Virus record (IMG/VR): IMGVR_UViG_3300045257_000499
Location: 1-62,479 of that record
DNA: 62,479 nucleotides
Reading direction: 5' to 3' (one strand)
From: a virus
The notes below the pieces were generated by a model. The model did not search any database and was not told the origin of the DNA. It saw nothing but the letters and a program-made list of their open reading frames with translations. The translations under genes and the position numbers were made by a program. Within the stretch, counting starts at the first letter, position 1, and each line of letters starts with the position of its first letter. Shown piece after piece: positions 2,582-60,193 of this stretch.

Positions 2582-2603
2582 GGGTGCCTCAGCTGAATGT
2601 CGG

Positions 2604-2643
2604 GGGTAGGGATGTAGAGGGCCGGTCGCGTTCGGCCCTCTAC
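2604..2643 (-). promoter_or_regulatory. Leader module: perfect 11-bp hairpin plus CCCTACCC
   Basis: On the leftward transcript an 11-bp perfect stem (arms 2614-2624 and 2633-2643, 8-base loop) is followed 2 bases later by CCCTACCC (2604-2611), then the GAGG ribosome site and the ATG at 2581. It is a variant copy of the CCCTACCA leader motif. Confidence 0.6.
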
Positions 2644-2658
2644 GGGGCTGAGCGGGGC

Positions 2659-2844
2659 TCACTCGATCTCGTTGCGGCAGCGGAAGAACTCGACGCCGGT
2701 CTCGCGGTCGCGAATCACGCACAATGAACCGGTGCGCTCGATAATGTCGCACTCGCGCTCCTCCGGGACCGGGATGTCATCGGTCCAGAACGTGTGAGCG
2801 ACGTTGCGTTGGACTTTGGGGTGGGGCGCGGAGATGGTGCGCAT
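2659..2844 (-). CDS. Hypothetical small phage protein (61 aa)
   Basis: Acidic protein with the sequence ECDIIERTGSLCVIRDRET, likely a small beta-rich fold. It is the first gene of its unit, with a CCCTACCA leader 21 bases upstream of the ATG. No family recognised. Confidence 0.7.
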   Translation of the reverse strand: MRTISAPHPKVQRNVAHTFWTDDIPVPEERECDIIERTGSLCVIRDRETGVEFFRCRNEIE

Positions 2845-2865
2845 TGTTTGCTCCGTTGCATTCGT

Positions 2866-2945
2866 TGGTAGGGGACACGTCGGGTATTCCCGATCGATGT
2901 TTGCAGTCTGGCAGGCGAGCGGACTACGTCAAGTCCTAAGCGTCG
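2866..2945 (-). promoter_or_regulatory. Long leader repeat, copy 1 (promoter-like block, hairpin, CCCTACCA)
   Basis: On the leftward strand: TAGGACTTGACG, then 14 bases after CTTG the block CCTGCCA, then the perfect hairpin TCGGGAATACCCGA, then CCCTACCA (2866-2873), leading to the ATG at 2844. The CTTG-N14-CCTGC spacing is identical in all four copies. The upstream end overlaps the stop codon of the previous gene. Promoter function is inferred. Confidence 0.6.
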
Positions 2946-3196
2946 AGCGGCTGAAGTTTTTCCTCAACCAGGATGCGGCTGACGCACGTGGCGACCAGGG
3001 ACGCAAAGGCAAGCTGCTCCCCGCCCGGGCTCGAGAGGAGGGCGCGCTCGTCGGCGTACTTGTCGCCGGCGATGAACTCTTTGAGCTCCTCGCGCATGAC
3101 GCGGCAAGCGATGTCGGCGTCGTCTGGTTTGATGACGCCGGTCGCGGCGACCGCGCGCATGAGTCGGTCGGCGACGGCGGCGATGGGATCGCTCAT
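2936..3196 (-). CDS. Hypothetical helical phage protein (86 aa)
   Basis: The start at 3196 has a GAGGA ribosome site a few bases upstream. The protein is predicted largely helical (VADRLMRAVAATGVIKP, MREELKEFIAG), with no membrane segment. Its stop codon lies inside long leader repeat copy 1. No family recognised. Confidence 0.75.
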   Translation of the reverse strand: MSDPIAAVADRLMRAVAATGVIKPDDADIACRVMREELKEFIAGDKYADERALLSSPGGEQLAFASLVATCVSRILVEEKLQPLDA

Positions 3197-3207
3197 GGGT
3201 GTCCTCC

Positions 3208-3612
3208 TCAGAACGAGAAATCGTGATAGTGAGCCCGTTCGCCGATGCGCAGGCCCTCGCCATGGGTCTTCCGCCACCGTTGAGTGCGGGAGTTGAATCG
3301 GACCTGGTGCCAGCTCCCATCGTCGGCGCGGCGGTAGGTCGATATGGCGCCTTGTGGGTTCGGTGAGAACTCGTACTCCTGCGACTCGCTCATGCCGTTC
3401 TTGTCGACGCGCCTGACGTGGTCCTCCTGGACGTTGATGTAGGTCTGCTTCCTGTTCGCCCAGACCTGGATGATGGTCGCCGCGTGGCGCTCGGTCCAAC
3501 ACAGGATGGTTGCGCCCATGCCGACCTGGGGCTCCGGCTGTCCAATGACGGAGCGGCTGAGAATATGGTTGGTCAGACTGCCGGTTTCCTTTCCAAGTTT
3601 CATTATTGCCAT
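3208..3612 (-). CDS. Hypothetical phage protein (134 aa)
   Basis: The start is taken at 3612 because a GAGG site lies just upstream; a start at 3660 would overlap the preceding gene by 58 bases. The middle (ILCWTERHAATIIQVWANRKQ) and later strands (ISTYRRADDGSWHQVRFNS) suggest a small beta-barrel fold. No family recognised. It is second to last in a four-gene unit that begins at 4112. Confidence 0.7.
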   Translation of the reverse strand: MAIMKLGKETGSLTNHILSRSVIGQPEPQVGMGATILCWTERHAATIIQVWANRKQTYINVQEDHVRRVDKNGMSESQEYEFSPNPQGAISTYRRADDGSWHQVRFNSRTQRWRKTHGEGLRIGERAHYHDFSF

Positions 3613-3848
3613 GTCCTCATTTGTTGTAGGAAGCTCGGAATAATAATCACGCGAAGGCATCCACCGGGGAGCGGCAAGCTGTGGCCGCAGTCTTCAAAGA
3701 ATGCCTGCACGCGCCATTCTCCGTTGCCGGGCGGCTCCAGGATGCGGCCGGCGACGAAGTCGACTTGGGTCTTGAGAAAGCCGAGGATTTCGGCGGCCTC
3801 GACATCGCTCTTTGCGGTGTCGATGAATTGGACCATGTAGTCGGCCAC
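3603..3848 (-). CDS. Hypothetical small phage protein (81 aa)
   Basis: Small protein with an acidic N-terminal helix (DTAKSDVEAAEILGFLKTQV). It lies 3 bases after the secreted His-rich gene and overlaps the next gene by 10 bases. No recognised family. Confidence 0.7.
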   Translation of the reverse strand: MADYMVQFIDTAKSDVEAAEILGFLKTQVDFVAGRILEPPGNGEWRVQAFFEDCGHSLPLPGGCLRVIIIPSFLQQMRTWQ

Positions 3849-3851
3849 GGC

Positions 3852-4112
3852 TCACCTCCCGCGCCGGCGGTGGTGATACCAGCGGTGATGATGCCAGTGG
3901 CGGTGTCCGCCAAACCGCACCACACGCACGCCGCGCGCCTGCGGGCAGCTGCAATGGCAGTCCACGCGGACCACGATTGGCGCCGGGGTTGGGACGGTCA
4001 CGGCGCGCTCGTGCGCGGGCGCCGGCGGCTTCGAGTCGCTGTAGGCCGAGTTGATGGCGCCAACGGCGAAAATGACAGTGCCGACCACGATTGCCAGACG
4101 GTCGAGGGTCAT
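3852..4112 (-). CDS. Hypothetical membrane/secreted His-rich protein (86 aa)
   Basis: An N-terminal hydrophobic segment (residues 6-22, LAIVVGTVIFAVGAINSAY) acts as a signal or anchor. It is followed by a Pro-rich linker and a Cys/His/Arg-rich tail (CHCSCP, HRHWHHHRWYHHRRR) that may bind metal. First gene of its unit, with a CCCTACCA leader 16 bases upstream. Probably at the inner membrane. Function unknown. Confidence 0.7.
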   Translation of the reverse strand: MTLDRLAIVVGTVIFAVGAINSAYSDSKPPAPAHERAVTVPTPAPIVVRVDCHCSCPQARGVRVVRFGGHRHWHHHRWYHHRRRGR

Positions 4113-4128
4113 GGATGGCTCCGTTGTT

Positions 4129-4168
4129 TGGTAGGGGTAAGGGCCGCGCGATTTGCTCGCGTCGGCCC
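4129..4168 (-). promoter_or_regulatory. Leader module: hairpin plus CCCTACCA
   Basis: CCCTACCA (4129-4136 on the leftward strand) lies 16 bases before the ATG at 4112. It is preceded by a stem-loop whose outer arms are GGGCCG (4141-4146) and CGGCCC (4163-4168), with an inner CGCG/CGCG pairing and one bulge. Confidence 0.55.
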
Positions 4169-4181
4169 GGCTTAGCGCGGC

Positions 4182-4964
4182 TTACCGATTGACCCAGCCG
4201 CCGAACCGGAAGCCGCTCTCCATCGCCGCGCGCGCCGCGTGCTTGGCGGTCTCGTCGCGGACGGTTCCCTCGCGGTCGGCGGCGGCGTCCATCTCCATCA
4301 TGCGGAGCTCGCCAGGGTCGATGCAGGCGAACATCTCGTCCGTGCGCTCGCAGCGCGCCGCGGCCTTGGCGCCCCAGGGCAGGCCGTAGTTCTTCGCGCA
4401 AGTTCGGCCGTAGCCGACTGCGGTCGAACGCTCGTCGGTGAGCGGGATATTGCAGAAGCAGCACTTGCCGGTCAGTCGGCCGTGCTCGGCCGCCACCTCG
4501 GAGGGTCGCTCCGCGAAGTTGCGCAGGGCAGGGAGGAGCGTGGCGGGAACATCGCACCGGTTCGACTCGTCGAACGAGCCGTCGCGTAGGATGCGGCCAA
4601 ACCAACGACCGACACCGTAGGGCGCGTTGTCGGCGACGTTGAGCGATCCCGGAACCCGGGCGCGCTCGCCGGCGACGCTCACGCGCACCTCGCCGACCTC
4701 GGCAATGTGCAGGACGATGGCGGGGGACTTGAGGTGCTGCTTGGCTCGCTCGAACAGCGCGAGGACGCCAGACAGGTCGCCAACCGACTCGCGCTGCTTT
4801 GGAGGCTGGCCGGCTTCGCGGGTCAACCGCTCGACCCAGTAGAGTTGCTTGCCGGATAGGCCGTGGCGCCGGCCCTTGCGGATCAGGTCGCGGGCAAAGT
4901 TCTGCTGGCTCGGGTTGAGCTGCTCGATGACCGCTTCGAGAGCGTTGATGGCTGCGTAGGACAT
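4182..4964 (-). CDS. Hypothetical phage protein with DUF6011-like zinc finger (260 aa)
   Basis: The N-terminal 60 residues are helical (LNPSQQNFARDLIRKG, GLSGKQLYWVERLT). The central part is beta-rich. Residues around 167-195 contain CCFCNIPLTDERS then VGYGRTCA, matching the small C-x2-C...GYG-x-xC zinc-binding module called DUF6011 in many phage proteins. The long helical C-terminus is charged. This is the largest gene of the leftward array. It has its own long leader repeat, so it is likely strongly expressed early. Exact role unknown; nucleic-acid binding is plausible. Confidence 0.8.
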   Translation of the reverse strand: MSYAAINALEAVIEQLNPSQQNFARDLIRKGRRHGLSGKQLYWVERLTREAGQPPKQRESVGDLSGVLALFERAKQHLKSPAIVLHIAEVGEVRVSVAGERARVPGSLNVADNAPYGVGRWFGRILRDGSFDESNRCDVPATLLPALRNFAERPSEVAAEHGRLTGKCCFCNIPLTDERSTAVGYGRTCAKNYGLPWGAKAAARCERTDEMFACIDPGELRMMEMDAAADREGTVRDETAKHAARAAMESGFRFGGWVNR

Positions 4965-4975
4965 TGCGTTGCTCC

Positions 4976-5068
4976 TGGTAGGGGTGCCCGTGGTTTTCCA
5001 CGTGACAAAGGAAGGATGGCAGGTACTACTCTGTTTGCAAGTCCTTTCCGGCCGAGCTCCAAAAAATG
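4976..5068 (-). promoter_or_regulatory. Long leader repeat, copy 2
   Basis: On the leftward strand: T-rich run, GGAGCTCGGCCG, AAGGACTTG, 14 bases, CCTGCCA, then the perfect hairpin CGTGG-AAAA-CCACG, then CCCTACCA directly followed by GGAG and the ATG at 4964. Closely related to the copies at 5708-5800 and 6854-6958. Confidence 0.65.
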
Positions 5069-5084
5069 TTCGAGCCCATTTGGC

Positions 5085-5438
5085 TCACTCGTAAACCGGC
5101 CGCGTCGCGGGGAAAGGCGCGGGCCACCCCGGGCAGACGACGGCCCTGTACTCGCCTTCGGACAGCACAGAGGAGATCGCGCGCCGTCCCTTGTTGATGT
5201 GGGCGTCGAGCGAGGCTTGCAGCGTTTCCCGGTAAGAGGTGGCCTCGTCCTCGTCGGTGAATACCGTCATCAGGTCGTGCGGGTTGATCCCGTCCGGAAT
5301 GTGCTCGATTGGGCGGCCGTGGTCGTACCACCAGCCTCCCTCCTCCGGGCCCCCGTAGGCGCGGTCGACCATAAAGATTGCGACCGTCCAGAACGCGGGC
5401 TTGGTTTCCTGGGTGTCGAGCTCGTTGTCGCGGGGCAT
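5085..5438 (-). CDS. Hypothetical phage protein (117 aa)
   Basis: The start at 5438 follows CCCTACCA and GGAG with correct spacing; an ATG 12 bases upstream falls inside the ribosome site. The N-terminal half contains the Trp/Gly-rich segment YGGPEEGGWWYDHGRP, followed by a helical region (TDEDEATSYRETLQASLDAHI). No family recognised. Single-gene unit. Confidence 0.7.
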   Translation of the reverse strand: MPRDNELDTQETKPAFWTVAIFMVDRAYGGPEEGGWWYDHGRPIEHIPDGINPHDLMTVFTDEDEATSYRETLQASLDAHINKGRRAISSVLSEGEYRAVVCPGWPAPFPATRPVYE

Positions 5439-5450
5439 TGGTTGCTCCAT

Positions 5451-5483
5451 TGGTAGGGAAGGATGGCCCCGGTTGACCGGGGC
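5451..5483 (-). promoter_or_regulatory. Leader module: 7-bp hairpin plus CCCTACCA
   Basis: A perfect GCCCCGG/CCGGGGC stem with a 4-base loop (5466-5483) precedes CCCTACCA (5451-5458), which lies 12 bases before the ATG at 5438. The hairpin may also end the upstream transcript. Confidence 0.55.
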
Positions 5484-5496
5484 AGATTTTTGGGCG

Positions 5497-5697
5497 TCAG
5501 CGATAGCGGCGGGTGTGCGGGAGGGGAGTTTGCAGCGAGTGGCGGTTGTGCCACGCGATTTGAATGGTGTGGAGGGCGATGGGGTCGCGCTCGGTGCGCG
5601 CGCAAGAGATGACCATTGCAGCAACAGAGGCCGGATAGCCCATGTTGTGCAGGATGCGGTGAAGCCGGGGGACAGCGCGGATGGTTTGGTGGGCCAT
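5497..5697 (-). CDS. Hypothetical small phage protein (66 aa)
   Basis: Small basic protein (MAHQTIRAVPRLHRILHNMG, then a helical stretch with ISCARTERDPIALH). The start at 5697 follows CCCTACCAGGAG. Upstream extensions of the frame would run through the leader. No family recognised. Confidence 0.65.
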   Translation of the reverse strand: MAHQTIRAVPRLHRILHNMGYPASVAAMVISCARTERDPIALHTIQIAWHNRHSLQTPLPHTRRYR

Positions 5698-5707
5698 TGT
5701 TTGCTCC

Positions 5708-5800
5708 TGGTAGGGGTGTCCGTGGTTTCCACGTGACAGGGGGAGCATGGCAGGGACTACGACTGATGCAAGCCCTATGCGGCCGAGCGAACAAAAAAGT
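5708..5800 (-). promoter_or_regulatory. Long leader repeat, copy 3
   Basis: On the leftward strand: CTTTTTT, GCTCGGCCGCATAGGGCTTG, 14 bases, CCTGCCA, then the perfect hairpin CGTGG-AAA-CCACG, then CCCTACCAGGAG 10 bases before the ATG at 5697. Confidence 0.65.
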
Positions 5801-5831
5801 GCGGCTCCGTGTACCCGGGGCCGGGGAGGAG

Positions 5832-6092
5832 TCAGAGGGGATCGGCAAACTCAAGCAGAGCCCAGGCTGCCTCGCATGTTGCGTCACACGCCTTGCACCA
5901 TGCCGGGTTCGAGGTGCTTGGAGTCCCGGCGGCCAGCATGCGCGCGGCGGCGTCGCGGACTGCGGCGATCTGTTTTACGAGCGCGCGCTTCTTGGCGCCG
6001 GCGACGTGCGCCAGCTTCGTGTTGGCCATCTTGATGACGTTGGTTGGGCATACCCCGTACCAATCGAGCGAGGATCTCTGCGGCTGTTTCAT
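5832..6092 (-). CDS. Hypothetical helical phage protein (86 aa)
   Basis: Mostly helical protein (VAGAKKRALVKQIAAVRDAAARML) with a Cys pair near the C-terminus (CKACDATC). The ATG overlaps the stop of the 25-residue ORF upstream by 4 bases. No family recognised. Confidence 0.7.
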   Translation of the reverse strand: MKQPQRSSLDWYGVCPTNVIKMANTKLAHVAGAKKRALVKQIAAVRDAAARMLAAGTPSTSNPAWCKACDATCEAAWALLEFADPL

Positions 6093-6166
6093 CTCAGTAG
6101 CTCCCGAGCGCCGTGCCGACCAGCCCGGCCGTGAACCGGGGCGAGGAGGAGAATGGCGAACATCAT
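6089..6166 (-). CDS. Possible 25-aa hydrophobic peptide
   Basis: Short ORF starting MMFAILLLAPVHG, whose stop overlaps the next gene's ATG (ATGA). A GAGGAAGGC stretch upstream could serve as its ribosome site. It may be a coupling peptide or simply a spacer. Weakly supported. Confidence 0.35.
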   Translation of the reverse strand: MMFAILLLAPVHGRAGRHGARELLR

Positions 6167-6176
6167 GGCGCCTTCC

Positions 6177-6440
6177 TCAGATCGTCTGGGCCGCGACGGT
6201 GCGTAGCTTGTCGGCCATCTGGAGCAGCTGGTCGGCGACGATCTCGGCGAGGTTCTCGTCGTCGTCGACGTCGGCCTGCACGAACGGCCAAAGGGAGCCA
6301 TTCATCGGGGCGGCGCCAACATCGAAGCCCTCGCGGCGGGTAATGTAGTGGCCGCTCAAAGCGACTCTCAGCGTTGAGACGAGCCGGTCGGCGCGCTCAC
6401 GGTTGAGGGCGGAACCGAATTGGACAGAGCGGATAGGCAT
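6177..6440 (-). CDS. Hypothetical small phage protein (87 aa)
   Basis: The start at 6440 has CCCTACCA then AGGAG immediately upstream. The protein has a basic first half and an acidic second half (QADVDDDENLAEIVADQLLQM). The longer frame to 6797 overlaps the neighbouring gene. No family recognised. Confidence 0.7.
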   Translation of the reverse strand: MPIRSVQFGSALNRERADRLVSTLRVALSGHYITRREGFDVGAAPMNGSLWPFVQADVDDDENLAEIVADQLLQMADKLRTVAAQTI

Positions 6441-6450
6441 GTTGTCTCCT

Positions 6451-6458
6451 TGGTAGGG
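6451..6458 (-). promoter_or_regulatory. CCCTACCA leader motif
   Basis: Exact copy 10 bases upstream of the ATG at 6440, abutting AGGAG. It overlaps the neighbourhood of the preceding gene's stop (6460), so there is no room for an intergenic promoter directly before it. Confidence 0.55.
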
Positions 6459-6459
6459 C

Positions 6460-6843
6460 TCAGTGAACCGGCAGGCGATAGGCTCGCGCGTCCTCGTGGC
6501 AGACAGCGAGATAGGGACGCTTGCTCGAGCCGGCGATGGTGCAGATGTAGGTGTACGGTTTGCCACGCCACGAGCGGACCTTTGTGGCATCGAGCGGGAC
6601 CGCGTAGCGCTTGCAGATGCCGGCAACGGTGCGCGCGACTCGGTCGGCGGTGCAGACCGTTGCGTCGGTCGCCTGCGCGGTGGCGCGCAGGGCGTCTTCC
6701 GACCGGTACGACTCAGCAAACTTGCGGGAGAGGAGGACGGGGTTGAGGCCGTATTCGGCCGCGATCTCGGCGACCACGTCGGCGGCGGCGGCGCCATTCA
6801 CCACTTCGGCCCGGAGATCTGAAAGAGCGGAGGCCAGTGACAT
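6460..6843 (-). CDS. Putative HTH-containing small phage protein (127 aa)
   Basis: Residues 20-45 (AADVVAEIAAEYGLNPVLLSRKF) look like a helix-turn-helix. The rest includes KRYAVPLDATKVRSWRG, followed by a beta-rich C-terminus containing YTYICTIAGSSKRP. The start follows CCCTACCAGGAG of long leader repeat copy 4. DNA binding is inferred only. Confidence 0.7.
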   Translation of the reverse strand: MSLASALSDLRAEVVNGAAAADVVAEIAAEYGLNPVLLSRKFAESYRSEDALRATAQATDATVCTADRVARTVAGICKRYAVPLDATKVRSWRGKPYTYICTIAGSSKRPYLAVCHEDARAYRLPVH

Positions 6844-6853
6844 TGTTTTCTCC

Positions 6854-6958
6854 TGGTAGGGTGGTCGCCCGGTTTCCAGGTCAACCATTCGAGGAGTCTT
6901 GCAGGCTACTGAGTTACGTCAAGTCCTATGCGGCCGAGCTCCAAAAAAAAGTCAAGAG
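6854..6958 (-). promoter_or_regulatory. Long leader repeat, copy 4
   Basis: On the leftward strand: CTTGAC and eight T, GGAGCTCGGCCGCATAGGAC, then TTGACG, CCTGC at the conserved spacing, then CCTGG-AAA-CCGGG (an imperfect version of the hairpin in copies 2 and 3), then CCCTACCAGGAG before the ATG at 6843. Confidence 0.65.
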
Positions 6959-6962
6959 AGGA

Positions 6963-7142
6963 TCAGCATGCGCTCCGCGCGGCGAGGCGGCGAAACATTG
7001 CCTTGCGCTCCTCGCGCAGCTCTGTGAGGTAGCGCCGCATGGAGGCCGCGCCGCGCGGCCGGTTCTCGCCCTCGGCGTTGGCCAGGACTTCCTTGGCGCG
7101 GTGAATCTCTCGATCAATCTCGGCGACTGTCTCGAAAGCCAT
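6963..7142 (-). CDS. Hypothetical small coiled helical protein (59 aa)
   Basis: Short ORF with a strong GAGGAGG ribosome site 5 bases before its ATG. The translation is highly charged and helical (ETVAEIDREIHRAKEVL, MRRYLTELREERKAMFRR), a likely coiled coil. It lies 10 bases after the gene at 7153. No family recognised. Confidence 0.7.
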   Translation of the reverse strand: MAFETVAEIDREIHRAKEVLANAEGENRPRGAASMRRYLTELREERKAMFRRLAARSAC

Positions 7143-7152
7143 GGTCCCCTCC

Positions 7153-7359
7153 TCACTTCGTGTCGACCAGATGCGGGCGCAGTTCGAACAGATCGCCCGC
7201 TGAAACTGCGTTCATGCCGAAGTAGGCTTGCAGAGCTTCGTGCTCGGCGTTGGGAAGGGTTGTCAGCTGGTCGGTGGCGACGACCTGACGGCCGTCAAGA
7301 AACAGATTGCCGCGGATGTAGTCGTGGCCGAGGCGCTCGGTGATGGGGAAGGTGGTCAT
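7153..7359 (-). CDS. Hypothetical small phage protein (68 aa)
   Basis: The start at 7359 is supported by GAGGAGG upstream. Content: LGHDYIRGNLFLDGRQVV followed by an acidic segment and FELRPHLVDTK. It is the middle of a three-gene leftward unit (7670, 7359, 7142). No family recognised. Confidence 0.7.
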   Translation of the reverse strand: MTTFPITERLGHDYIRGNLFLDGRQVVATDQLTTLPNAEHEALQAYFGMNAVSAGDLFELRPHLVDTK

Positions 7360-7370
7360 TGCCCACCTCC

Positions 7371-7670
7371 TCACCACTTCGCGACGCCGGCCGCGGCCAG
7401 AGCTAGAGCGGAGGCATGGTTGACAGCCAGATCGAGGCGGCCGCCCTGGCGGATATTGTTGACCTGGTTGACGGTCCAGCTCAGCACCTCGACCGGAGTG
7501 GTGTCGCGTTCGCCGGCGGTTTGTTTGGCGCAGGCTTCGACGAACCGAGCGCGGTAGCCTTCGAGATCGCGGGCAGCGCGCTTGTGGTGCTCGATCAGCT
7601 CGTCGATCCACGCCGTGGCGCCGTCGTGGGCCATCTTGAGCATCATGCTCTGCCGGTCTTGCTTGGTCAT
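7371..7670 (-). CDS. Hypothetical helical phage protein (99 aa)
   Basis: Largely helical protein (ATAWIDELIEHHKRAARDLEG; VLSWTVNQVNNIRQGGRLD) of 99 residues with GGAG upstream of the ATG. First gene of its unit, with leader variant CCCTACCT. No family recognised. Confidence 0.75.
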   Translation of the reverse strand: MTKQDRQSMMLKMAHDGATAWIDELIEHHKRAARDLEGYRARFVEACAKQTAGERDTTPVEVLSWTVNQVNNIRQGGRLDLAVNHASALALAAAGVAKW

Positions 7671-7688
7671 CGTAAGTCTCCGTTGCTC

Positions 7689-7696
7689 AGGTAGGG
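7689..7696 (-). promoter_or_regulatory. Leader motif variant CCCTACCT
   Basis: One-mismatch copy of the leader motif, 18 bases before the ATG at 7670. Upstream (7697-7797) is an AT-rich stretch likely to contain the promoter of this three-gene unit, but no clear -35/-10 pair stands out. Confidence 0.45.
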
Positions 7697-7797
7697 AAGT
7701 TCTCGTTTTCGTTAAGTGTAGTCTGAACCTGTACTATCGAAATTCAATGACTAACCTTGAAATAATACTTCTTTGTTCTTGCGTTCGTAGAATAGCG

Positions 7798-7824
7798 TGA
7801 CGCCCGGGTCGAGCCCGGGCGTCA
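7798..7824 (-). terminator. Strong stem-loop after the DUF488-like gene
   Basis: An 11-bp perfect GC-rich stem (7798-7808 with 7814-7824) and a 5-base loop, 50 bases beyond the stop of the leftward gene at 7873. No clear U-run follows, so it may act as a terminator or an RNA-stabilising hairpin. Confidence 0.5.
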
Positions 7825-7872
7825 GCGGCGGATGCGTGTATATAGTGTGGAACGGAGAGGGAACGAAAGTAA

Positions 7873-8382
7873 TCAGCCTCCGTGCAGGTCGAGGCGCATC
7901 TGCTTCCCCGTGGGCTTCGCTGGCGGCTCGACCGGAGAGTAGGAAGGGGCCGCGACCCCGTTCAGCCTGAGCAGGGCGAAGCGGTCCAGACCGGGGAAGT
8001 CCACCTCGGGGACCTTGATGCCGAGGGAGTCCTCGAGCCACTGCGCCACGATGTGTCGGTGGCACCACTTCACCCCGCATTGGACATCGCTCGCGCCCTC
8101 GAAGCAGAGGAGAGTGGGCGTGCGGCCGTCGCTGGCGAGTCGCTGCAAATCCGCGACGACCTTGTGGGGATCGAGGGAAGCGAGAATTTCCTTGTTGAAA
8201 CGCCGCAGGTATTCGGCGGGCGTGCACGACTTGAACCACGAGCCGGGACACAACGCACGATACTGCTTGAAGCCGGCAGCCTGGCCGCGCGGGGTTCCGC
8301 GAGAGATGCCCACCCGCAGGTGAGTCGCGGGGAGCTTCGCGAACCACGAGGCGGTCGCGATGATGGGCTGCGAGTCAGTCAT
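7873..8382 (-). CDS. DUF488-like protein (169 aa)
   Basis: The start at 8382 follows CCCTACCATGGAG. The segments ATASWFAKLPATHLRVGISRG, GSWF, LLCFEGASDVQ and KWCHRHIVAQWLE match the conserved pattern of the DUF488 family: beta-strand, Gly/Trp loop, then L-C-x-E...CHR. Family function is unsettled, and several members are nucleic-acid or stress related. It is the first leftward gene next to the divergent control region, so likely the earliest expressed. Confidence 0.75.
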   Translation of the reverse strand: MTDSQPIIATASWFAKLPATHLRVGISRGTPRGQAAGFKQYRALCPGSWFKSCTPAEYLRRFNKEILASLDPHKVVADLQRLASDGRTPTLLCFEGASDVQCGVKWCHRHIVAQWLEDSLGIKVPEVDFPGLDRFALLRLNGVAAPSYSPVEPPAKPTGKQMRLDLHGG

Positions 8383-8398
8383 GTGCGTGTTGTCTCCA

Positions 8399-8436
8399 TG
8401 GTAGGGTCGGTTTTTAGTTGATCCCATCATTATGGG
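8399..8436 (-). promoter_or_regulatory. CCCTACCA leader with upstream hairpin
   Basis: CCCTACCA (8399-8406) lies 16 bases upstream of the ATG at 8382. A 5-bp hairpin with a 4-base loop lies at 8423-8436. Confidence 0.5.
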
Positions 8437-8437
8437 T

Positions 8438-8450
8438 AGTTGCCAACAGG
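8438..8450. promoter_or_regulatory. Palindromic operator-like site (AGTTGCCAACAGG)
   Basis: Contains the perfect 9-base palindrome GTTGCCAAC. The same 13-base sequence occurs in the opposite orientation at 14075 and 59366, and with a single change at 9574. Its place between divergent genes suggests a binding site for a phage regulator. Confidence 0.5.
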
Positions 8451-8583
8451 TTTTCAAGAAGAAAATTTGTTAGCTCGCTCAAGCGCCTGCGCAAAATCGT
8501 CGCCGTCTGCTGCTGCGCACCTCTTGCGCGCGCGCACGCGCGCGACACACAAGCCCGGCCACAACGAAGAAAGAAAAACAACG

Positions 8584-9750: not shown

Positions 9751-9758
9751 CCCTACCA
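9751..9758 (+). promoter_or_regulatory. CCCTACCA leader motif
   Basis: Exact copy immediately after the tRNA CCA end and 12 bases before the GTG at 9771. Here the tRNA takes the place of the upstream hairpin. Confidence 0.55.
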
Positions 9759-9770
9759 AGGAAGACGGCC

Positions 9771-9929
9771 GTGGGATTTGCGGCGAAGCAGGTGTACGGC
9801 CCTGATTCCCCGGGCCACAAGCGCCGACAGCAAGGCACGACGCTGACCAAGGTCAAGGCGATGATTCGCGAGCGCACGTCGTCGCGTCGCGAGATGGTCA
9901 ACCTCGGCCTCCTCGGGAACAAGCGGTGA
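9771..9929 (+). CDS. Hypothetical basic phage peptide (52 aa)
   Basis: GTG start preceded by AAGGA. The small Arg/Lys-rich protein (GHKRRQQGTTLTKVKAMIRE) ends in LGLLGNKR. The basic helix could contact nucleic acid. First gene of a tightly packed rightward block. Confidence 0.55.
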   Translation: MGFAAKQVYGPDSPGHKRRQQGTTLTKVKAMIRERTSSRREMVNLGLLGNKR

Positions 9930-14293: not shown

Positions 14294-14331
14294 GAGGGGC
14301 CAACCCCTCCCGCCCGTCTGCGCCCCTACCA
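14294..14331 (+). promoter_or_regulatory. Leader module: hairpin plus CCCTACCA
   Basis: A GAGGGG/CCCCTC stem with a 4-base loop (14294-14309) is followed by CCCTACCA at 14324-14331, 20 bases before the ATG at 14352. The rightward counterpart of the leaders in the leftward array. Confidence 0.55.
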
Positions 14332-14351: not shown

Positions 14352-14819
14352 ATGAGGTTTTGGATTCGGCTCGTGGTCGACATCCTCATCGGCCTCGCGA
14401 TCCTTCTGGTGATCGGCTTGGTCTTCGGCGTGTGGTTCGGCATCCGCACTGCCCACGGCCGCGACCTCGGCCAGTGGGGTAACGCCGACCCGGCGATCTC
14501 GCGGTGGTTCAAGTCGCTCCAGCAGCCGGACGTCGAAGCGTCGTGCTGCGGCGAGGCCGACGCCTACTGGGCAGACGGATTCGATTCCAACAAAGACGGG
14601 AACTATATCGCGATCATCACGGATGAGCGCGACGACACCGCACTCGTGCGGCGCCACATCCCGGTCGGCACGCGCATCACGATCCCGAAAGAAAAGGTCA
14701 AGTGGGACCAAGGCAACCCGACCGGCCACGGCGTCGTGTTCGTCGCGTCGACTGACTACGACGCGAACACCCCGCAGGGGTTCTGGGTCTACTGCTACGT
14801 GCCGCCGGGAGGGGCGTGA
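14352..14819 (+). CDS. Membrane-anchored or exported hypothetical phage protein (155 aa)
   Basis: A strong N-terminal hydrophobic helix (residues 5-30, LVVDILIGLAILLVIGLVFG) is followed by a soluble domain with a CC pair (EASCCGEADAYWAD) and beta strands. The soluble part probably faces the periplasm. First gene of its unit with a CCCTACCA leader. Similar small proteins are common in alphaproteobacterial phages, but no function is known. Confidence 0.75.
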   Translation: MRFWIRLVVDILIGLAILLVIGLVFGVWFGIRTAHGRDLGQWGNADPAISRWFKSLQQPDVEASCCGEADAYWADGFDSNKDGNYIAIITDERDDTALVRRHIPVGTRITIPKEKVKWDQGNPTGHGVVFVASTDYDANTPQGFWVYCYVPPGGA

Positions 14820-15916: not shown

Positions 15917-16228
15917 GTGAGCAAACCCTCCGGCCTGCGCCACCGCGACGACAATCTCTGGAGCCGCAGTCACGCCTACCGCAAAGGCTACCACGCTGGC
16001 CGCATGGACGAGCGCGAAGACAAGATGGCGCGCCCGGTGCTGATTCAGTTTCGTTTTGAGGACGGCCGCGTGGTCAATCTCAACGAAGCTGTTGGCAACT
16101 TGGCGAAAGTTGGACTCAAGATCGTTCCGGTCGATCAGCCTGACATGCAACCCCGACTCAGAGCGGGGGAAGTCCCTACCGAGGAGACAGCATGTCGGAC
16201 ACCAAATACTACGTCGTCGGCTTCTTGA
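15917..16228 (+). CDS. Hypothetical phage protein (103 aa)
   Basis: GTG start. A basic, Tyr/His-rich N-terminus (LWSRSHAYRKGYHAGRMDERE) is typical of small phage peptides with an RxxY..GYxxG pattern. It then contains FEDGRVVNLNEAVGNLAKVG. Its last 37 bases overlap the Nudix gene, including the CCCTACCG leader, so the C-terminus may be shorter in reality. It also contains a copy of the GTTGGCAAC palindrome. Confidence 0.55.
   Translation: MSKPSGLRHRDDNLWSRSHAYRKGYHAGRMDEREDKMARPVLIQFRFEDGRVVNLNEAVGNLAKVGLKIVPVDQPDMQPRLRAGEVPTEETACRTPNTTSSAS
16089..16100. promoter_or_regulatory. Operator-like palindrome inside a coding region (CTGTTGGCAACT)
   Basis: Twelve bases identical to the intergenic copies at 14075 and 59366. 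It lies inside the 103-aa ORF, about 100 bases upstream of the Nudix gene start, so it could regulate that gene or be coincidental. Confidence 0.35.
16151..16181 (+). promoter_or_regulatory. Leader module: hairpin plus CCCTACCG
   Basis: A CCCCG/CGGGG stem (16151-16155 with 16164-16168) is followed by CCCTACCG (16174-16181) and GAGGAG, 10 bases before the Nudix ATG at 16192. Confidence 0.5.
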
Positions 16229-16653
16229 GGGAGAAGGCCACCGGCGACGTCATCTTCATTCGCAAACAAAAGCCGCAGTGGCAGAAGGGCAGGCTCAACG
16301 GCGTCGGCGGGAAGATCGAACAGGGCGAGACGCCGCTTCAGGCGATGGCTCGCGAGTTCCACGAGGAAGTCGGCTTCGAGCACAGGGAGTGGCGCCAGTT
16401 TGCGCTCCTGACGGATCGCACGCCCAGCGATAACCGCTCGGTCGTCTACTGCTTCGCAGCCGAGGTCGATGAGTTTCCGGGCTGGCCGGATCAAGACCTG
16501 CCCCGGCGCGTGACGGACGTAGGCGAGGGGATCGAGCTGCACGATCCGCTCAAAATCCCCGGCCGGCTCGACATCATTCCGAACCTGGCGTGGCTCGTGC
16601 CGCTCGCGTTTTTCGATCAAGACGCGCCGGTGGTGGTCGCACAGGCGGCTTGA
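16192..16653 (+). CDS. Nudix hydrolase (153 aa)
   Basis: The Nudix box spans residues 40-62 (GGKIEQGETPLQAMAREFHE then EVGF), matching the Gx5Ex7REuxEExGu signature. The N-terminus VVGFLREKATGDVIFIRKQ is the usual first strand of MutT-type enzymes. It likely hydrolyses a nucleoside diphosphate linked to another group. In phages such enzymes clean up oxidised or excess (d)NTPs or decap RNA. Good GAGGAG ribosome site and CCCTACCG leader. The neighbouring deaminase gene suggests a nucleotide-metabolism cluster. Confidence 0.9.
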   Translation: MSDTKYYVVGFLREKATGDVIFIRKQKPQWQKGRLNGVGGKIEQGETPLQAMAREFHEEVGFEHREWRQFALLTDRTPSDNRSVVYCFAAEVDEFPGWPDQDLPRRVTDVGEGIELHDPLKIPGRLDIIPNLAWLVPLAFFDQDAPVVVAQAA

Positions 16654-25299: not shown

Positions 25300-25389
25300 G
25301 GAGAGATGGGCGAGAGGCTGATGCCGGCTGTCTCGAAAACAGCAAGACCGTAACGGGTCTCGTAGGTTCGAATCCTACTCTCTCCGCCA
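25300..25389 (+). tRNA. tRNA-Ser (CGA anticodon, reads UCG)
   Basis: 90 bases including encoded CCA: acceptor GGAGAGA/TCTCTCC, anticodon stem GCTGT/ACAGC with loop CTCGAAA, a long variable arm typical of tRNA-Ser, T loop TTCGAAT, discriminator G. A clear canonical type II tRNA. Confidence 0.93.
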
Positions 25390-25393
25390 AAAC

Positions 25394-25409
25394 ATACGCG
25401 CAAGCGTAT
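25394..25409 (+). repeat. GNRA hairpin 1 (ATACGC-GCAA-GCGTAT)
   Basis: A perfect 6-bp stem closed by a GCAA tetraloop, 4 bases after the tRNA-Ser CCA. It has the same stem as the hairpin at 25421. Confidence 0.6.
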
Positions 25410-25420
25410 ATCTCCAAAAA

Positions 25421-25436
25421 ATACGCGAAAGCGTAT
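25421..25436 (+). repeat. GNRA hairpin 2 (ATACGC-GAAA-GCGTAT)
   Basis: Identical stem to the preceding hairpin but with a GAAA tetraloop, 11 bases downstream. Two stacked GNRA hairpins suggest an RNA element or an imperfect tandem repeat that kept the stem and varied the loop. Confidence 0.6.
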
Positions 25437-25518
25437 GCGTGAACGGAGTGCGCCATGAAAGACGTTGTCGCGCGGCGCCGTAGAAATCCTCGTCAAAGCA
25501 CTCAGGGAGTACCACACC

Positions 25519-25866
25519 ATGTCCAGCGCTGCCACCGAAGCTCTCCGCGCCGAAGTCGCGGAGGTGAAAGCCACCGACGCAGCGGTGCTTGCGCTCGTGC
25601 AGGCGCAGTCCGCGACCATCGCCGATCTGACCGCCAGGTTCGCGGACGTGAGCGCGAAGCTCGCGAGCGCTGCGCCCGACGAGTCGGCCGAGATCGCCGC
25701 GCTCGCCGCCGAGCTCAAGGCGTCCAACGACCAGCTCAAGGCCGTGCTGCCGGCTCCGGCGCCTGCGGCTCCGGCCGCCCCCGCTCCGGCTTCGGTCGAT
25801 CCCGCCGTCGAGGCGCCGGCTTCGGCTTCGGCGCCGGCTTCCGCGCCGGCTCCCGCGGCGCAGTAA
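25519..25866 (+). CDS. Coiled-coil phage protein with Ala/Pro-rich tail (115 aa)
   Basis: The ATG at 25519 has AGGGAG upstream. Residues 1-75 are a long charged coiled coil (ATEALRAEVAEVKATDAAV; LAAELKASNDQLKAVL). The last 40 are Ala/Pro-rich (repeated APAP/ASAPAS). Common shape in small phage structural or scaffolding proteins of alphaproteobacterial phages. Function unknown. Confidence 0.7.
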   Translation: MSSAATEALRAEVAEVKATDAAVLALVQAQSATIADLTARFADVSAKLASAAPDESAEIAALAAELKASNDQLKAVLPAPAPAAPAAPAPASVDPAVEAPASASAPASAPAPAAQ

Positions 25867-25883
25867 CGCGATCGGACTGCACG

Positions 25884-26351
25884 ATGATAGAGGGCATCGT
25901 CGGCAATTCGGGGCGCATGCGCGCCGGGTTCTTCGGCGCGATTGGCGGCGCGGCCGCCATGTGCGCGGTGATGCTTCTTCTGGGCTCGGCGCCGTCGTCG
26001 CAGGACGATGGCCCCGACCCGGAGGGCGCCGCGCTGGTGGCTCCGACCATGTCGATTCCACCGGAGAGCGCGCCCGGCTTTGTGGCGCCCGCGCCATCTC
26101 CGGCCCCGATCCAGCCTGCTTCCGCTCCCGCCCCGGCCCCCGCGCCAGCGCTGACTCCGCCACCGCCGCTGCCCGTGCCGAAGCCGCATCATGTGAGACC
26201 GAAGCTTCCGGCCAAGCCGAAGCCGAAGACGAAGCCTCACCCTCATCCTCTACCCAAAGGACCGGCGCGCGCGCCGGCCGCGAAGAAACCGGCTCCCGCC
26301 CCGGTGAAGCCTGCGCAGCAGCCCTGCCATTTTTTCTGCAACACGAGCTGA
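25884..26351 (+). CDS. Membrane-anchored Pro/Lys-rich TonB-like protein (155 aa)
   Basis: An N-terminal hydrophobic helix (residues 14-33, GFFGAIGGAAAMCAVMLLLG) is followed by an extended Pro/Ala/Lys-rich region (PVPKPHHVRPKLPAKPKPKT) like the periplasm-spanning part of TonB or of spanin-type proteins. It ends with a Cys pair (CHFFCNTS). It could span the periplasm. Not TonB: the C-terminal domain is absent. Alternatives are a lysis spanin or an envelope-acting moron. Longer upstream frames are shadows. Confidence 0.6.
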   Translation: MIEGIVGNSGRMRAGFFGAIGGAAAMCAVMLLLGSAPSSQDDGPDPEGAALVAPTMSIPPESAPGFVAPAPSPAPIQPASAPAPAPAPALTPPPPLPVPKPHHVRPKLPAKPKPKTKPHPHPLPKGPARAPAAKKPAPAPVKPAQQPCHFFCNTS

Positions 26352-26354
26352 CCC

Positions 26355-27077
26355 ATGTCGAAGGCAACGATTGTCATTGTCGGCGCCGACAAGGGCGGCA
26401 CCGGCAAGACCACGGTGACGCGCGCGCTGCTTGATTTCCTCGACGCGCACCGCGTCGTCTATCGCGCCTTCGACACGGAGTCGCCGGCCGGCGACCTCGT
26501 GCGCTTTGCGACGAAGGCCAAAGTCATCGACATCAGCAAGGTGCAGTCGCAGATGGAAGTGTTCGATGGCGCGAATGCGTCGGTCGTCACTGTCGTCGAC
26601 CTGCGGGCCGGCATGCTGTCGGAGACCATCAAGGCGCTCGAGGAGGCTTGCCTGCTTGAGGACGTGCGCGCCGGCGACATGAACCTGGTGCTCCTGCACG
26701 TGCTGGGCCCGACCATCTCCTCGCTCGGCGAGATCACCTCGGTCGTTGAGCGGATCGGCGGTGGCGCTCGCCACCTCCTGGTGAAGAACCACATCAACGA
26801 CACGACGTTCTTCGAGTGGGACGCTGCGGGCTCCCCGCTGCGCAGCATGAACGACGTGACGATCAACGTGCCGCAGCTCGTCGAGATCGCCTGCGAGGCG
26901 GTCCAGAAGGTCGGCGGCACTTTCGTCGATTTCACGAAGAATGCGACGCAATCCCGATTGCTTCGGGGCCGCGTCAAAACGTGGGTCGAAGCTGTGTGGG
27001 TGGAGTTCTCCCGCGTCGGCATCCTCTCGCCTGCGCCGGCCGGCGTGCCGGCCGACGTTGAGGCCCCGCACGCTTAA
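26355..27077 (+). CDS. ParA-like P-loop ATPase (240 aa)
   Basis: Deviant Walker A at residues 9-19 (GADKGGTGKTT), the KGGxGKT signature of the ParA/MinD family, followed by FDTESPAGDLVRFA and VTVVDLRAG (Walker-B-like). It would bind ATP and probably dimerise on DNA or a surface. A ParB-like gene lies at 18664, but the two are not adjacent, so a partition cassette is not shown. Many alphaproteobacterial plasmids and phages carry such orphan ATPases. The stop is directly followed by tRNA-Met. Confidence 0.85.
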   Translation: MSKATIVIVGADKGGTGKTTVTRALLDFLDAHRVVYRAFDTESPAGDLVRFATKAKVIDISKVQSQMEVFDGANASVVTVVDLRAGMLSETIKALEEACLLEDVRAGDMNLVLLHVLGPTISSLGEITSVVERIGGGARHLLVKNHINDTTFFEWDAAGSPLRSMNDVTINVPQLVEIACEAVQKVGGTFVDFTKNATQSRLLRGRVKTWVEAVWVEFSRVGILSPAPAGVPADVEAPHA

Positions 27078-27154
27078 AGCAGGGTAGAGCAGCCTGGTAG
27101 CTCGTCTGGCTCATAACCAGAAGGTCGCCGGTTCAAATCCGGTCCCTGCAACCA
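27078..27154 (+). tRNA. tRNA-Met, initiator-like (CAU)
   Basis: 77 bases with encoded CCA. The D arm (AGCAGCCTGGTAGCTCGTC) and T arm follow the bacterial initiator tRNA-fMet very closely. The 1-72 pair is mismatched (A1 with A72), as in initiators (usually C1-A72). The anticodon stem is TCTGG/CCAGA, so it keeps two of the three G-C pairs typical of initiators. Directly after the ParA-like stop codon. Confidence 0.85.
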
Positions 27155-27170
27155 ACATGCGGAGAGCCAC

Positions 27171-27713
27171 ATGCTCACGTCAGATCGTGAGCTGTGGCTC
27201 ACCTATTTTTTCAAGCTGACGCGCCGCGAATACTTCGCCGACTTCTTCATCACTCCTCCCATCACATTGGCCCTCGCAATCTTCTCGGTCACCGCGAGCT
27301 TCTCGTGGCTGTGGCCGGTTACGTTTGTCGGTGGCCTGCTTTTCTGGACGCTGTGGGAGTACGCGACGCATCGCTGGATTAGCCACCGCTGGTGGATCTT
27401 ACGCGAGGCTCACTGGCTGCATCACAAGCGCCAGAAAGACTACATCGCGATTCATCCCGCAGTCACGCTTGGGCTCTATGCGGTGTTCTGGCTGTTGTTC
27501 GGCATCCAGAGCAGCGCCTTCATGATCGGCTTTTCGTGTGGGTACATCGCCTACGCGACTCTGCACACGATGTTCCATTACGCCGCGATCCGCGGCGACT
27601 CGTGGCTGTGGACGCTCAAGCGTCACCACGCGCTTCATCACCGTTTTCACGACGTGAACTTCGGTGTTGTCACGACCTTCTGGGATCGCGTCCTGCGCAC
27701 GCACGTCGTGTAA
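27171..27713 (+). CDS. Fatty acid hydroxylase/sterol desaturase-like membrane protein (180 aa)
   Basis: Diiron membrane oxygenase-like protein. Hydrophobic helices span residues 30-60, 95-125 and 118-135. His motifs are HRWIS-H (67-72), HWLHH (81-85), HTMFH (132-136) and HHALHH (152-157), close to the pattern of the FA hydroxylase superfamily, which uses two irons to add hydroxyl groups to lipids. The ATG follows GGAGAG just after tRNA-Met. A lipid-modifying enzyme is a plausible auxiliary metabolic gene, for example to change host lipid or LPS and exclude other phages. The substrate is unknown. Confidence 0.8.
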   Translation: MLTSDRELWLTYFFKLTRREYFADFFITPPITLALAIFSVTASFSWLWPVTFVGGLLFWTLWEYATHRWISHRWWILREAHWLHHKRQKDYIAIHPAVTLGLYAVFWLLFGIQSSAFMIGFSCGYIAYATLHTMFHYAAIRGDSWLWTLKRHHALHHRFHDVNFGVVTTFWDRVLRTHVV

Positions 27714-27720
27714 ATCCGAT

Positions 27721-27796
27721 GCCGGGGTAGCTCAGTCGGTAGAGCATCACGTCGCCAACGTGAAGGTCGCGGGTTCGATCCCCGCCCCTCGCTCCA
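27721..27796 (+). tRNA. tRNA-Gly (GCC anticodon, reads GGC)
   Basis: 76 bases with encoded CCA. Anticodon stem TCACG/CGTGA, loop TCGCCAA, T arm GCGGG/CCCGC with TTCGATC loop. The acceptor stem has one C-C mismatch (3-70) and one G-T pair, otherwise canonical. It begins 8 bases after the hydroxylase stop. Confidence 0.88.
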
Positions 27797-29489: not shown

Positions 29490-29517
29490 GGCCGCGCGGC
29501 CATTCTTTTCCCTACCA
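29490..29517 (+). promoter_or_regulatory. Leader module: GGCCGCGCGGCC palindrome plus CCCTACCA
   Basis: A 12-base palindrome (29490-29501), a short pyrimidine tract and CCCTACCA (29510-29517), 17 bases before the ATG at 29535. The palindrome with ATTCTTTT can also terminate upstream transcription. Confidence 0.5.
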
Positions 29518-29534: not shown

Positions 29535-29948
29535 ATGGCAATGACCATCAAGCTCTCCGTCGCCGTGCGCAACGCCGAGCTCGACGCGATCGAGACCGCG
29601 ATCGGCACGAGCGCCAAGCTCATGATCTACACGGGCTCGGCTCCCGCGAACATCACCGACGCCGCGACCGGAACGAAGCTCGCCGAGTTCGATCTGGCGG
29701 CCGATTGGGCCGCGAATGCGTCAGGCGGCTCGAAGAACTTCAACAATCTGCCGCTCGCGACCACTGGTCTCGCCGCCGGCAACTGCGGCTACTACCGCAT
29801 CTACGCCTCGGACGGCACGACCTGCCACTGGCAGGGCACGGTGACTGCGACGGGCGGTGGCGGCGACATGACGGTCGACAACGTCTCGGTCGCGGTCGGT
29901 CAGAACATCCAGGTCACCTCCTTCTCTCTCACCGCCGGCAATGCCTAA
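29535..29948 (+). CDS. Hypothetical virion protein (137 aa)
   Basis: The ATG follows AAGGATCG. Content rich in Ala/Thr/Gly with beta patterns (KLMIYTGSAPANITDA; YYRIYASDGTTCHWQGTV; TVDNVSVAVGQNIQ). Such proteins are frequent in alphaproteobacterial phage structural blocks. Probably a capsid or fibre decoration protein. Confidence 0.65.
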   Translation: MAMTIKLSVAVRNAELDAIETAIGTSAKLMIYTGSAPANITDAATGTKLAEFDLAADWAANASGGSKNFNNLPLATTGLAAGNCGYYRIYASDGTTCHWQGTVTATGGGGDMTVDNVSVAVGQNIQVTSFSLTAGNA

Positions 29949-34585: not shown

Positions 34586-34923
34586 GTTTCTCCCCGCGAC
34601 TCTCTCTCCAGAGGCGCGGACACGCCGGACCCCCGGGGCCCGGCGTTTCTTCTCTCTGAGGTGAGAACAGCCTCCTCACGCGCGGTGTGACAGCCGTCAG
34701 TAGCGATGGCGCTCGAATCGGCGCCCGCGAAGTGATGCCGGCGTCGGCGCCCGGCCAGAGAGAACCCCTTTTCACCCGTCTCCATGGCGGACCGTCGCGG
34801 CGAGCGATGCTCGCGCGCGCGGCTGGAGCCTGTCCAGCAAACAGGTAACCGCGGCCGAGCGCCGCCCGCTGCCGGACGGCCTCCGGTCACCGAGGCGACG
34901 CCTCAAAGTAAGGACTACACCAA
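34586..34923. other. 338-base gap without a recognised gene
   Basis: A terminator-like hairpin occurs near the start (34622-34646). The rest shows no credible ORF or tRNA fold; short frames lack ribosome sites. It probably holds the promoter of the head gene unit that begins at 34924, but no clear -35/-10 pair was seen. Confidence 0.4.
34622..34646 (+). terminator. Stem-loop terminator with pyrimidine tail
   Basis: An ACGCCGG/CCGGCGT stem with an internal mismatch and inner C-G pairs, followed by TTTCTTCTCTCT, 36 bases after the 34271 gene's stop. It closes the cargo block. Confidence 0.6.
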
Positions 34924-35805: not shown

Positions 35806-35813
35806 TCCTACCA
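35806..35813 (+). promoter_or_regulatory. Leader motif variant TCCTACCA before the capsid gene
   Basis: A one-mismatch copy of CCCTACCA, 7 bases after the hairpin and 15 bases before the ATG of the major capsid gene (AGAGAG site between). Confidence 0.5.
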
Positions 35814-57343: not shown

Positions 57344-57442
57344 GAGTTCTGTCCCCACGTTATTTGTTGTGGATGCAGGGCGCGCGCGTGAGCTGCGCGC
57401 TGATAATGGCGGCAATCGCTGAGTCGCGCCAAGCGGCCAGCT

Positions 57443-57450
57443 CCCTACCA
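57443..57450 (+). promoter_or_regulatory. CCCTACCA leader motif
   Basis: Exact copy 13 bases before the ATG at 57464, followed by GTGAGG. Confidence 0.55.
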
Positions 57451-59441: not shown

Positions 59442-59449
59442 CCCTACCA
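59442..59449 (+). promoter_or_regulatory. CCCTACCA leader motif
   Basis: Exact copy 15 bases before the GTG at 59465. Confidence 0.55.
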
Positions 59450-60185: not shown

Positions 60186-60193
60186 CCCTACCA
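60186..60193 (+). promoter_or_regulatory. CCCTACCA leader motif
   Basis: Exact copy 15 bases before the ATG at 60209, followed by AAGAAGGA. Confidence 0.55.

Follow-up and report, generated by a model that had tools for sequence, protein, structure and literature searches.

A start-associated word and a bulged-A hairpin as parts of a candidate 5'-leader module in a contractile-tailed phage

Start-associated sequences (SAS) have been known in mycobacteriophages since 2011, and their function is open. In cluster K they are 13-bp words upstream of gene starts, in 11-19 copies per genome; half of them have inverted repeats (ESAS), which were later seen to contain putative promoters (PMC3203893; Adephagia study, PMC11373665). 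They are the nearest match in behaviour to the element described here, the 8-base word CCCTACCA of the viral record IMGVR_UViG_3300045257_000499, the whole 62,479 bp of which (GC 64%) are called the window below. At four sites within 2866-6958, the word belongs to a leader that also includes a hairpin and a promoter-like block.

Like SAS, the word is short, asymmetric and multi-copy, and lies directly 5' of starts in a single orientation, the genes concerned belonging to different families. Like ESAS, a subset of the words has an upstream inverted repeat and a putative promoter. The CCCTACCA module is nevertheless analogous to SAS/ESAS and not a member of them, since their consensus is absent, the Shine-Dalgarno sequence (SD) stands outside the word, and its inverted repeats have another organisation. 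The SAS consensus GGGATAGGAGCCC, with up to two deviations, matches the window twice (1.34 expected), both times away from the leaders. SAS contain their own SD, whereas CCCTACCA adjoins it. The inverted repeats of ESAS are conserved in sequence, 15-17 bp long, and contain a SigA-like promoter, whereas the window hairpin lies downstream of the promoter-like block, with variable arms and a bulged A. The host group and the phage type also differ.

In the RNA phage MS2, the operator is a bulged-A hairpin that is bound for translational control. The gene 43 translational operator of T4 and RB69 is also a hairpin, a single operator for one protein (PMC3014915). The window hairpin resembles such operators in its position 5' of the ribosome-binding site, and in a bulged A and A-rich loop typical of protein recognition; unlike them, it has a layout shared by several genes. 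By its layout it is a candidate protein-bound operator. The T4-type promoter stem-loop cassettes (PeSL; Arbiol 2010, Comeau 2014) are cited in PMC4503421 as promoter-terminator motifs. As far as that citation describes them, the common point is that units of stem-loop and promoter are repeated at gene borders, in a region whose genes are small and variable; the window hairpin differs in lying between promoter and start codon, abutting a fixed word and having no U-tract.

The word, the hairpin and the promoter-like block

The word occurs 14 times in the window, against 0.38 expected, and all 14 copies lie in sense orientation before the start of an open reading frame (ORF), at 4-21 nucleotides (nt), with a median of 12.5. 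It ranks first among the start-associated 8-mers of the window and is usually followed on its 3' side, at variable distance, by the SD. Its core is sharp: before GGAG-ATG, the window has two forms with one mismatch, and two relatives described below have one and none. Among the tagged genes are one for a virion protein and one for an A1-like DNA-transfer protein (Table 1). Genes on both strands carry CCCTACCA genome-wide, so that the four leaders are those members of a phage-wide set that also have the promoter-like block. Near one of the other sites, the hairpin at 5466-5483, before the tag at 5458, is terminator-like with a T-run when read on the plus strand, and may for this reason stop antisense transcription.

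The leaders were first noticed in a sequence-only reading, and all four are present where it had placed them, on the minus strand. Their parts follow the order T-run, GAGCTCGGCCGCATAGG (leaders 2-4), CTTG-N14-CCTGC, hairpin, CCCTACCA, SD and ATG. The fixed spacing claimed for the CTTG and CCTGC blocks was confirmed, GGRCTTG-N14-CCTGC having four matches window-wide, all at the leaders, and its reversed control none; other gap lengths (8 to 23 tried) gave 0 or 1 match each. Allowing up to three mismatches, GAGCTCGGCCGCATAGG is found four times against 0.47 expected, at leaders 2, 3 and 4 and at one unrelated site. A terminator-like hairpin is seen upstream of leader 2 and is not clear at leaders 1, 3 and 4. 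Leaders 2 and 3, with 74% identity over 78 nt, look like recent duplicates.

The promoter-like block consists of CTTGMN, a 16-nt spacer, and TGC followed by MANNCT, and is restricted in the window to the four leaders. Read as a promoter, it would have a -35 element TTGACG or TTGCAN, a 16-nt spacer ending in TGC, and CAGACT, CATCCT, CATGCT or AAGACT as the -10 hexamer, with A2 and T6 kept in all four candidates and an identical geometry. Its layout resembles that of an extended -10 sigma-70 promoter (a -35 like TTGACA, a spacer of 16-18 nt, TGN and a -10 like TATAAT), whose activity is predicted. The earlier suggestion of a promoter read by host or phage polymerase would hold for the sigma-70 type; a phage polymerase is unsupported, none being present among the scanned proteins, which cover a subset of the genes. 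The genes behind the four leaders could be early and switched together, as was also proposed.

The hairpin begins 4-7 nt past the -10 hexamer, that is, at or near the predicted 5' end of the transcript, and comprises an outer stem, a single bulged A, a 5-bp inner stem and an A-rich loop. The inner arms of the leaders (UCGGG/CCCGA, CGUGG/CCACG in two copies, and CCUGG/CCGGG) vary in letters and retain their pairing. Copy 4 had been described as imperfect, which is incorrect: once the outer stem and the bulged A are taken into account it pairs throughout, at -14.6 kcal/mol. The same layout is common to leaders 1-3, leader 1 having one additional bulged U, and it recurs without the promoter block at two further CCCTACCA sites, 4136 (minus strand) and 57443 (plus strand). 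The claim that complementary arms betray a structure that matters is supported, since all 30 inner pairs form in the six copies, a result equalled by 2 of the 720 arm permutations, as expected from two copies with identical arms. These pairs were counted by script because MAFFT gave no structure-consistent alignment of the hairpins.

Defined strictly as four outer pairs, a bulged A, five inner pairs and a loop of 3-6, the layout is present at 5 of the 18 word sites; shuffled sequences gave 0.025 on average and never more than 1. One of 75 other gene starts has it, and no word site fits when the bulged base is C, G or T. A conserved RNA-type structure is therefore supported. Upstream of the word, folding energy as a whole is only slightly lower than in random sequence (z -1.39 vs -0.13, p 0.004), with no clear difference from other intergenic regions (p 0.07); it is the specific bulged-A layout that stands out. 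Rfam covariance models gave no match over 2600-8500 at E up to 1, and an identity with lambda boxB was dropped, as the loop sequences vary.

Recurrence in two related phages

Two other records carry the word. G1151 (IMGVR_UViG_3300050821_024094) was reached through the baseplate-region protein encoded at 43191-45803 (71% identical), and its major capsid protein is 74% identical to that of the window; G1159 (IMGVR_UViG_3300048578_000200), reached through a 215-aa protein encoded at 1459-2106, has 54% identity in the terminase and 61% in the portal. There are 19 copies in G1151, mostly as TCCCTACCAC, and 21 in G1159, nearly all as TCCCTACCACGGAG; 16 and 20 of them, respectively, stand before a start. 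The median distance from word to start is 11.5-16 nt over the three phages, and the SD is nearly fused to the word (CCCTACCACGGAG) in G1159 only. The bulged-A hairpin precedes two word sites of G1151, against 0.01 in the null, as AGCCG[A]CGCGG(AAAA)CUGCG-CGGCU and GAGG[A]GCCGG(AUCAA)CCGGC-CCUC; with the six window copies, all eight fold alike.

As to the spacing and the complementary arms, by which relatives were to judge the initial proposal, the outcome is divided: the promoter block of the window is absent from both G1151 and G1159, whereas the word and a complementary hairpin do recur in G1151. Repeated blocks of their own were seen by eye in both, TGGTACATATACGTACCA in G1151 and TAAGTTATTGA in G1159. 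The former is a near-palindrome repeated upstream of several tagged genes (L170 15486; L167 4009, 6360), with TTGAC nearby, and is likely G1151's own promoter or operator.

No homolog in G1151 was found for 12 of the 17 tagged window genes. Between G1151 and G1159, the word is kept at 4 of the 5 homologous pairs in which either member has it, with none in 12 further pairs (Fisher p 0.002). Since the tag is kept at these pairs and the tagged genes of the window and G1151 mostly differ, the word is a property of the phage group, often retained at common genes and otherwise placed before different ones. It is absent from more than 50 relatives reached through the capsid, DUF6011 and A1-like proteins, and from prophages of the rhizobial order with 35-44% capsid identity. 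Scans of viral contigs with the portal and with a 494-aa protein yielded nothing. The composite of promoter and word had 64 matches in viral contigs; as no contig among them had a further set of words at gene starts, these were put down to chance.

The only non-structural protein clearly common to the three phages is the 215-aa protein mentioned above (minus strand), which has homologs of 43-67% identity in ten further viral contigs. It has conserved cysteines and looks zinc-ribbon-like by eye; it has no Pfam or PHROG match and no homolog among GenBank phages.

The habit of carrying start words is wider than cluster K, since other phages have their own, with different letters each and unrelated in sequence, some after a hairpin or a repeated promoter. 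Bradyrhizobium phage BDU-MI-1 has TTTGCTTGAATGCAAA-type hairpin repeats directly before the SDs of many genes, and AATGCAAA is enriched both there and in related contigs of the 120-kb class (L101, L111-L113). Rhizobium phage RHph_I4 repeats a promoter and leader of the form TTGACAAAGGATCGG...TATAA...GGAGAACCAC before many genes. Among the contigs related through DUF6011, L025 has the start word AACACCAC, some copies after a hairpin, and L023 has ATGAAAGG. In Synechococcus phage MinM2, the palindrome GGTTCAGNCTGAACC stands at many gene borders and CTGAACCG has 26 copies in 45 kb. The CCCTACCA phages are a second case, unrelated to SAS and in another host group. Their constant 8-base core before non-homologous genes, together with a hairpin maintained through compensatory changes, is an argument for the repeated evolution of genome-wide start tags in phages.

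Proposed working and alternative explanations

What is directly seen comprises the parts, their order, the conservation of structure, the recurrence within and across phages, and the separability from the promoter. The reading favoured here, with a probability of roughly 0.55, is that of a start-associated 5'-leader module of interchangeable parts, in which word, SD and start are constant and the hairpin and promoter are optional. The duplicated regulatory unit of the sequence-only reading thus holds as an observation and becomes composite: the promoter is its variable part, and the word with SD and start its phage-wide part.

Such a module probably works by way of a trans-acting factor that affects either translation or the stability of the mRNA. 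Host RNA polymerase would start at the leader promoter, so that the hairpin would cover the 5' end of the transcript, where it could slow RppH/RNase E-dependent decay, bind a protein, or both; 5' structures are known to protect mRNA from this decay (PMC3997798). Single-stranded CCCTACCA beside the SD would be the recognition site of the factor, of host or phage origin. The word suits such a site in mRNA because it is exact, sense, adjoining the SD and common to several phages. The factor would then set how fast 30S subunits are loaded, jointly for every tagged gene, the whole amounting to a control of translation initiation to which the hairpin would add stability or a second contact. A more far-reaching version, put forward tentatively and with less than even odds, makes CCCTACCA and the bulged-A hairpin the address of an RNA-level regulon, in which one RNA-binding factor would control translation or stability of at least 12 mostly unrelated genes per phage, independently of the promoter, in probable alphaproteobacterial phages. 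The tag looks, in any event, like a shared handle for the control of protein production across the three phages, before mostly different genes, and offers short, well-defined parts for testing.

Several observations weigh against the module so conceived. No factor binding CCCTACCA was identified, and the word has no obvious pairing with the 3' end of 16S RNA. The 215-aa protein is not sufficient as its partner, because it is also present in at least eight contigs devoid of the word. Most word sites, and all those of G1159, are without the bulged-A hairpin, which would hence be unnecessary for whatever the word does. The six window hairpins amount to about five independent cases, given the likely recent duplication of leaders 2 and 3. 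The promoter-like block falls under the sigma-70 threshold of a generic promoter scan, which is why its activity is given as a prediction. Lastly, in base-pairing models the SD of leaders 2-4 pairs with the sequence around it and is thereby poorly accessible.

The foremost alternative, although unlikely, is that CCCTACCA is recognised as DNA by a phage repressor or another DNA-binding protein, which would block or set transcription close to gene starts, the RNA leader being incidental. The word is indeed asymmetric, oriented along transcription, multi-copy and mostly intergenic, properties also given for the stoperators of cluster A mycobacteriophages, which are contrasted with SAS (PMC3203893). 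At stoperators, the bound immunity repressor stops transcription. However, it is tightly coupled to SD and start, at the median distances given above; structural genes are tagged too (the variant at 35807, and 29510); and hairpin arms that change while pairing is kept point to RNA. Next in probability, and doubtful as well, the leaders could be linkers for recombination, or regulatory cassettes that are mobile, with conserved borders by which small genes are swapped as in the T4-type cassettes. The lack of G1151 homologs for most tagged window genes, the tagging of different genes in each phage and the terminator-like hairpin directly upstream of leader 2 would agree with this. Yet the conserved stretch is often just 8 bp, below the need of ordinary homologous recombination, near-miss words are rare, and the word is retained at genes homologous between G1151 and G1159; gene shuffling can moreover be a by-product.

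It seems somewhat more doubtful still that hairpin and word are chiefly an mRNA processing or stability element, an intercistronic structure whose cleavage or protection would provide every cistron with a separate 5' end. The position of the hairpin, at the predicted transcript start in the four leaders and between genes elsewhere, is consistent with this, as is the stabilisation of mRNA by 5' structure (PMC3997798), but a strong hairpin is absent at most word sites, G1159 combines the sharpest word with few hairpins, and the fixed word would be left unexplained. Plain descent of a duplicated promoter and ribosome-binding leader, whose copies would be similar without special function, would account for the resemblance of leaders 2 and 3 (74% identical over 78 nt). 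This explanation, already disfavoured, is very improbable in view of arms that differ yet pair, and of a word that is repeated without change at dozens of sites, before genes that are not homologous, in three phages that have diverged.

The phage record and its features

Table 1. Positions of the word, its variants, the hairpins and the promoter-like parts in the window
Feature	Coordinates	Strand	Remarks
CCCTACCA, leader 1	2866..2873	-	before gene 2659-2844
CCCTACCA, leader 2	4976..4983	-	before DUF6011 gene 4182-4964
CCCTACCA, leader 3	5708..5715	-	before gene 5497-5697
CCCTACCA, leader 4	6854..6861	-	before gene 6460-6843
CCCTACCA	4129..4136	-	before gene 3852-4112
CCCTACCA	5451..5458	-	before gene 5085-5438; preceded by plain 7-bp hairpin
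CCCTACCA	6451..6458	-	before gene 6177-6440
CCCTACCA	8399..8406	-	before gene 7873-8382 (DUF488-like)
CCCTACCA	9751..9758	+	before ORF 9771-9929
CCCTACCA	14324..14331	+	before gene 14352-14819; preceded by strong hairpin
CCCTACCA	29510..29517	+	before gene 29541-29948 (virion structural)
CCCTACCA	57443..57450	+	before DNA-transfer (A1-like) protein gene 57464-59362
CCCTACCA	59442..59449	+	before gene 59471-59875 (DUF1937)
CCCTACCA	60186..60193	+	before gene 60209-60799
CCTACCA, one base short of word	35807..35813	+	3' of perfect hairpin; before major capsid gene 35829-36797
Variant CCCTACCC	2604..2611	-	preceded by 11-bp hairpin
Variant CCCTACCT	7689..7696	-	before gene 7371-7670
Variant CCCTACCG	16174..16181	+	before gene 16192-16653 (NUDIX)
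Hairpin, leader 1	2875..2900	-	ACAUCG[A]UCGGG(AAUA)CCCGA CGUGU; one additional bulged U
Hairpin, leader 2	4985..5007	-	TGTC[A]CGTGG(AAAA)CCACG GGCA
Hairpin, leader 3	5717..5738	-	TGTC[A]CGTGG(AAA)CCACG GACA
Hairpin, leader 4	6862..6887	-	UGGUUG[A]CCUGG(AAA)CCGGG-CGACCA; abuts CCCTACCA
Hairpin without promoter block	4141..4168	-	GGGCCG[A]CGCGA(GCAAA)TCGCG CGGCCC
Hairpin without promoter block	57418..57441	+	GCTG[A]GTCGC(GCCAA)GCGGC CAGC
Promoter-like block, leader 1	2905..2933	-	CTTGAC-N14-CCTGC + CAGACT
Promoter-like block, leader 2	5013..5041	-	CTTGCA-N14-CCTGC + CATCCT
Promoter-like block, leader 3	5744..5772	-	CTTGCA-N14-CCTGC + CATGCT
Promoter-like block, leader 4	6895..6923	-	CTTGAC-N14-CCTGC + AAGACT (-35, 16-nt spacer, TGC, -10)
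GAGCTCGGCCGCATAGG block, leader 2	5043..5059	-	T-run farther upstream
GAGCTCGGCCGCATAGG block, leader 3	5774..5790	-	T-run farther upstream
GAGCTCGGCCGCATAGG block, leader 4	6925..6941	-	T-run farther upstream
Terminator-like hairpin + T6	5071..5087	-	directly upstream of leader 2

The terminase, portal, capsid, scaffold, tail sheath and baseplate genes of the window indicate a contractile-tailed phage. Its left end is probably a provirus edge, since the gene found there, which we read as a proline iminopeptidase, has homologs 66-74% identical across many proteobacterial genomes. No close DNA match to the first 25 kb exists among GenBank phages, and a family search around the nearest host-gene match yielded no capsid relative. 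The nearest named phage is BDU-MI-1 (capsid 54%, A1-like protein 60%), from which a host of rhizobial type is likely.

A skipping-rope RNA (RF02924) is predicted at 34651-34763 on the plus strand (Rfam 46.7 bits, above gathering), amid virion genes and directly 5' of the scaffold gene. Three tRNA genes, Ser-CGA, Met-CAT and Gly-GCC, lie at 25300-27796 (plus strand), the last two separated by a fatty-acid-hydroxylase-like gene (27171-27713). Close to the right end, at 61074-61811 on the plus strand, stands a DprA-like gene of host or phage origin.

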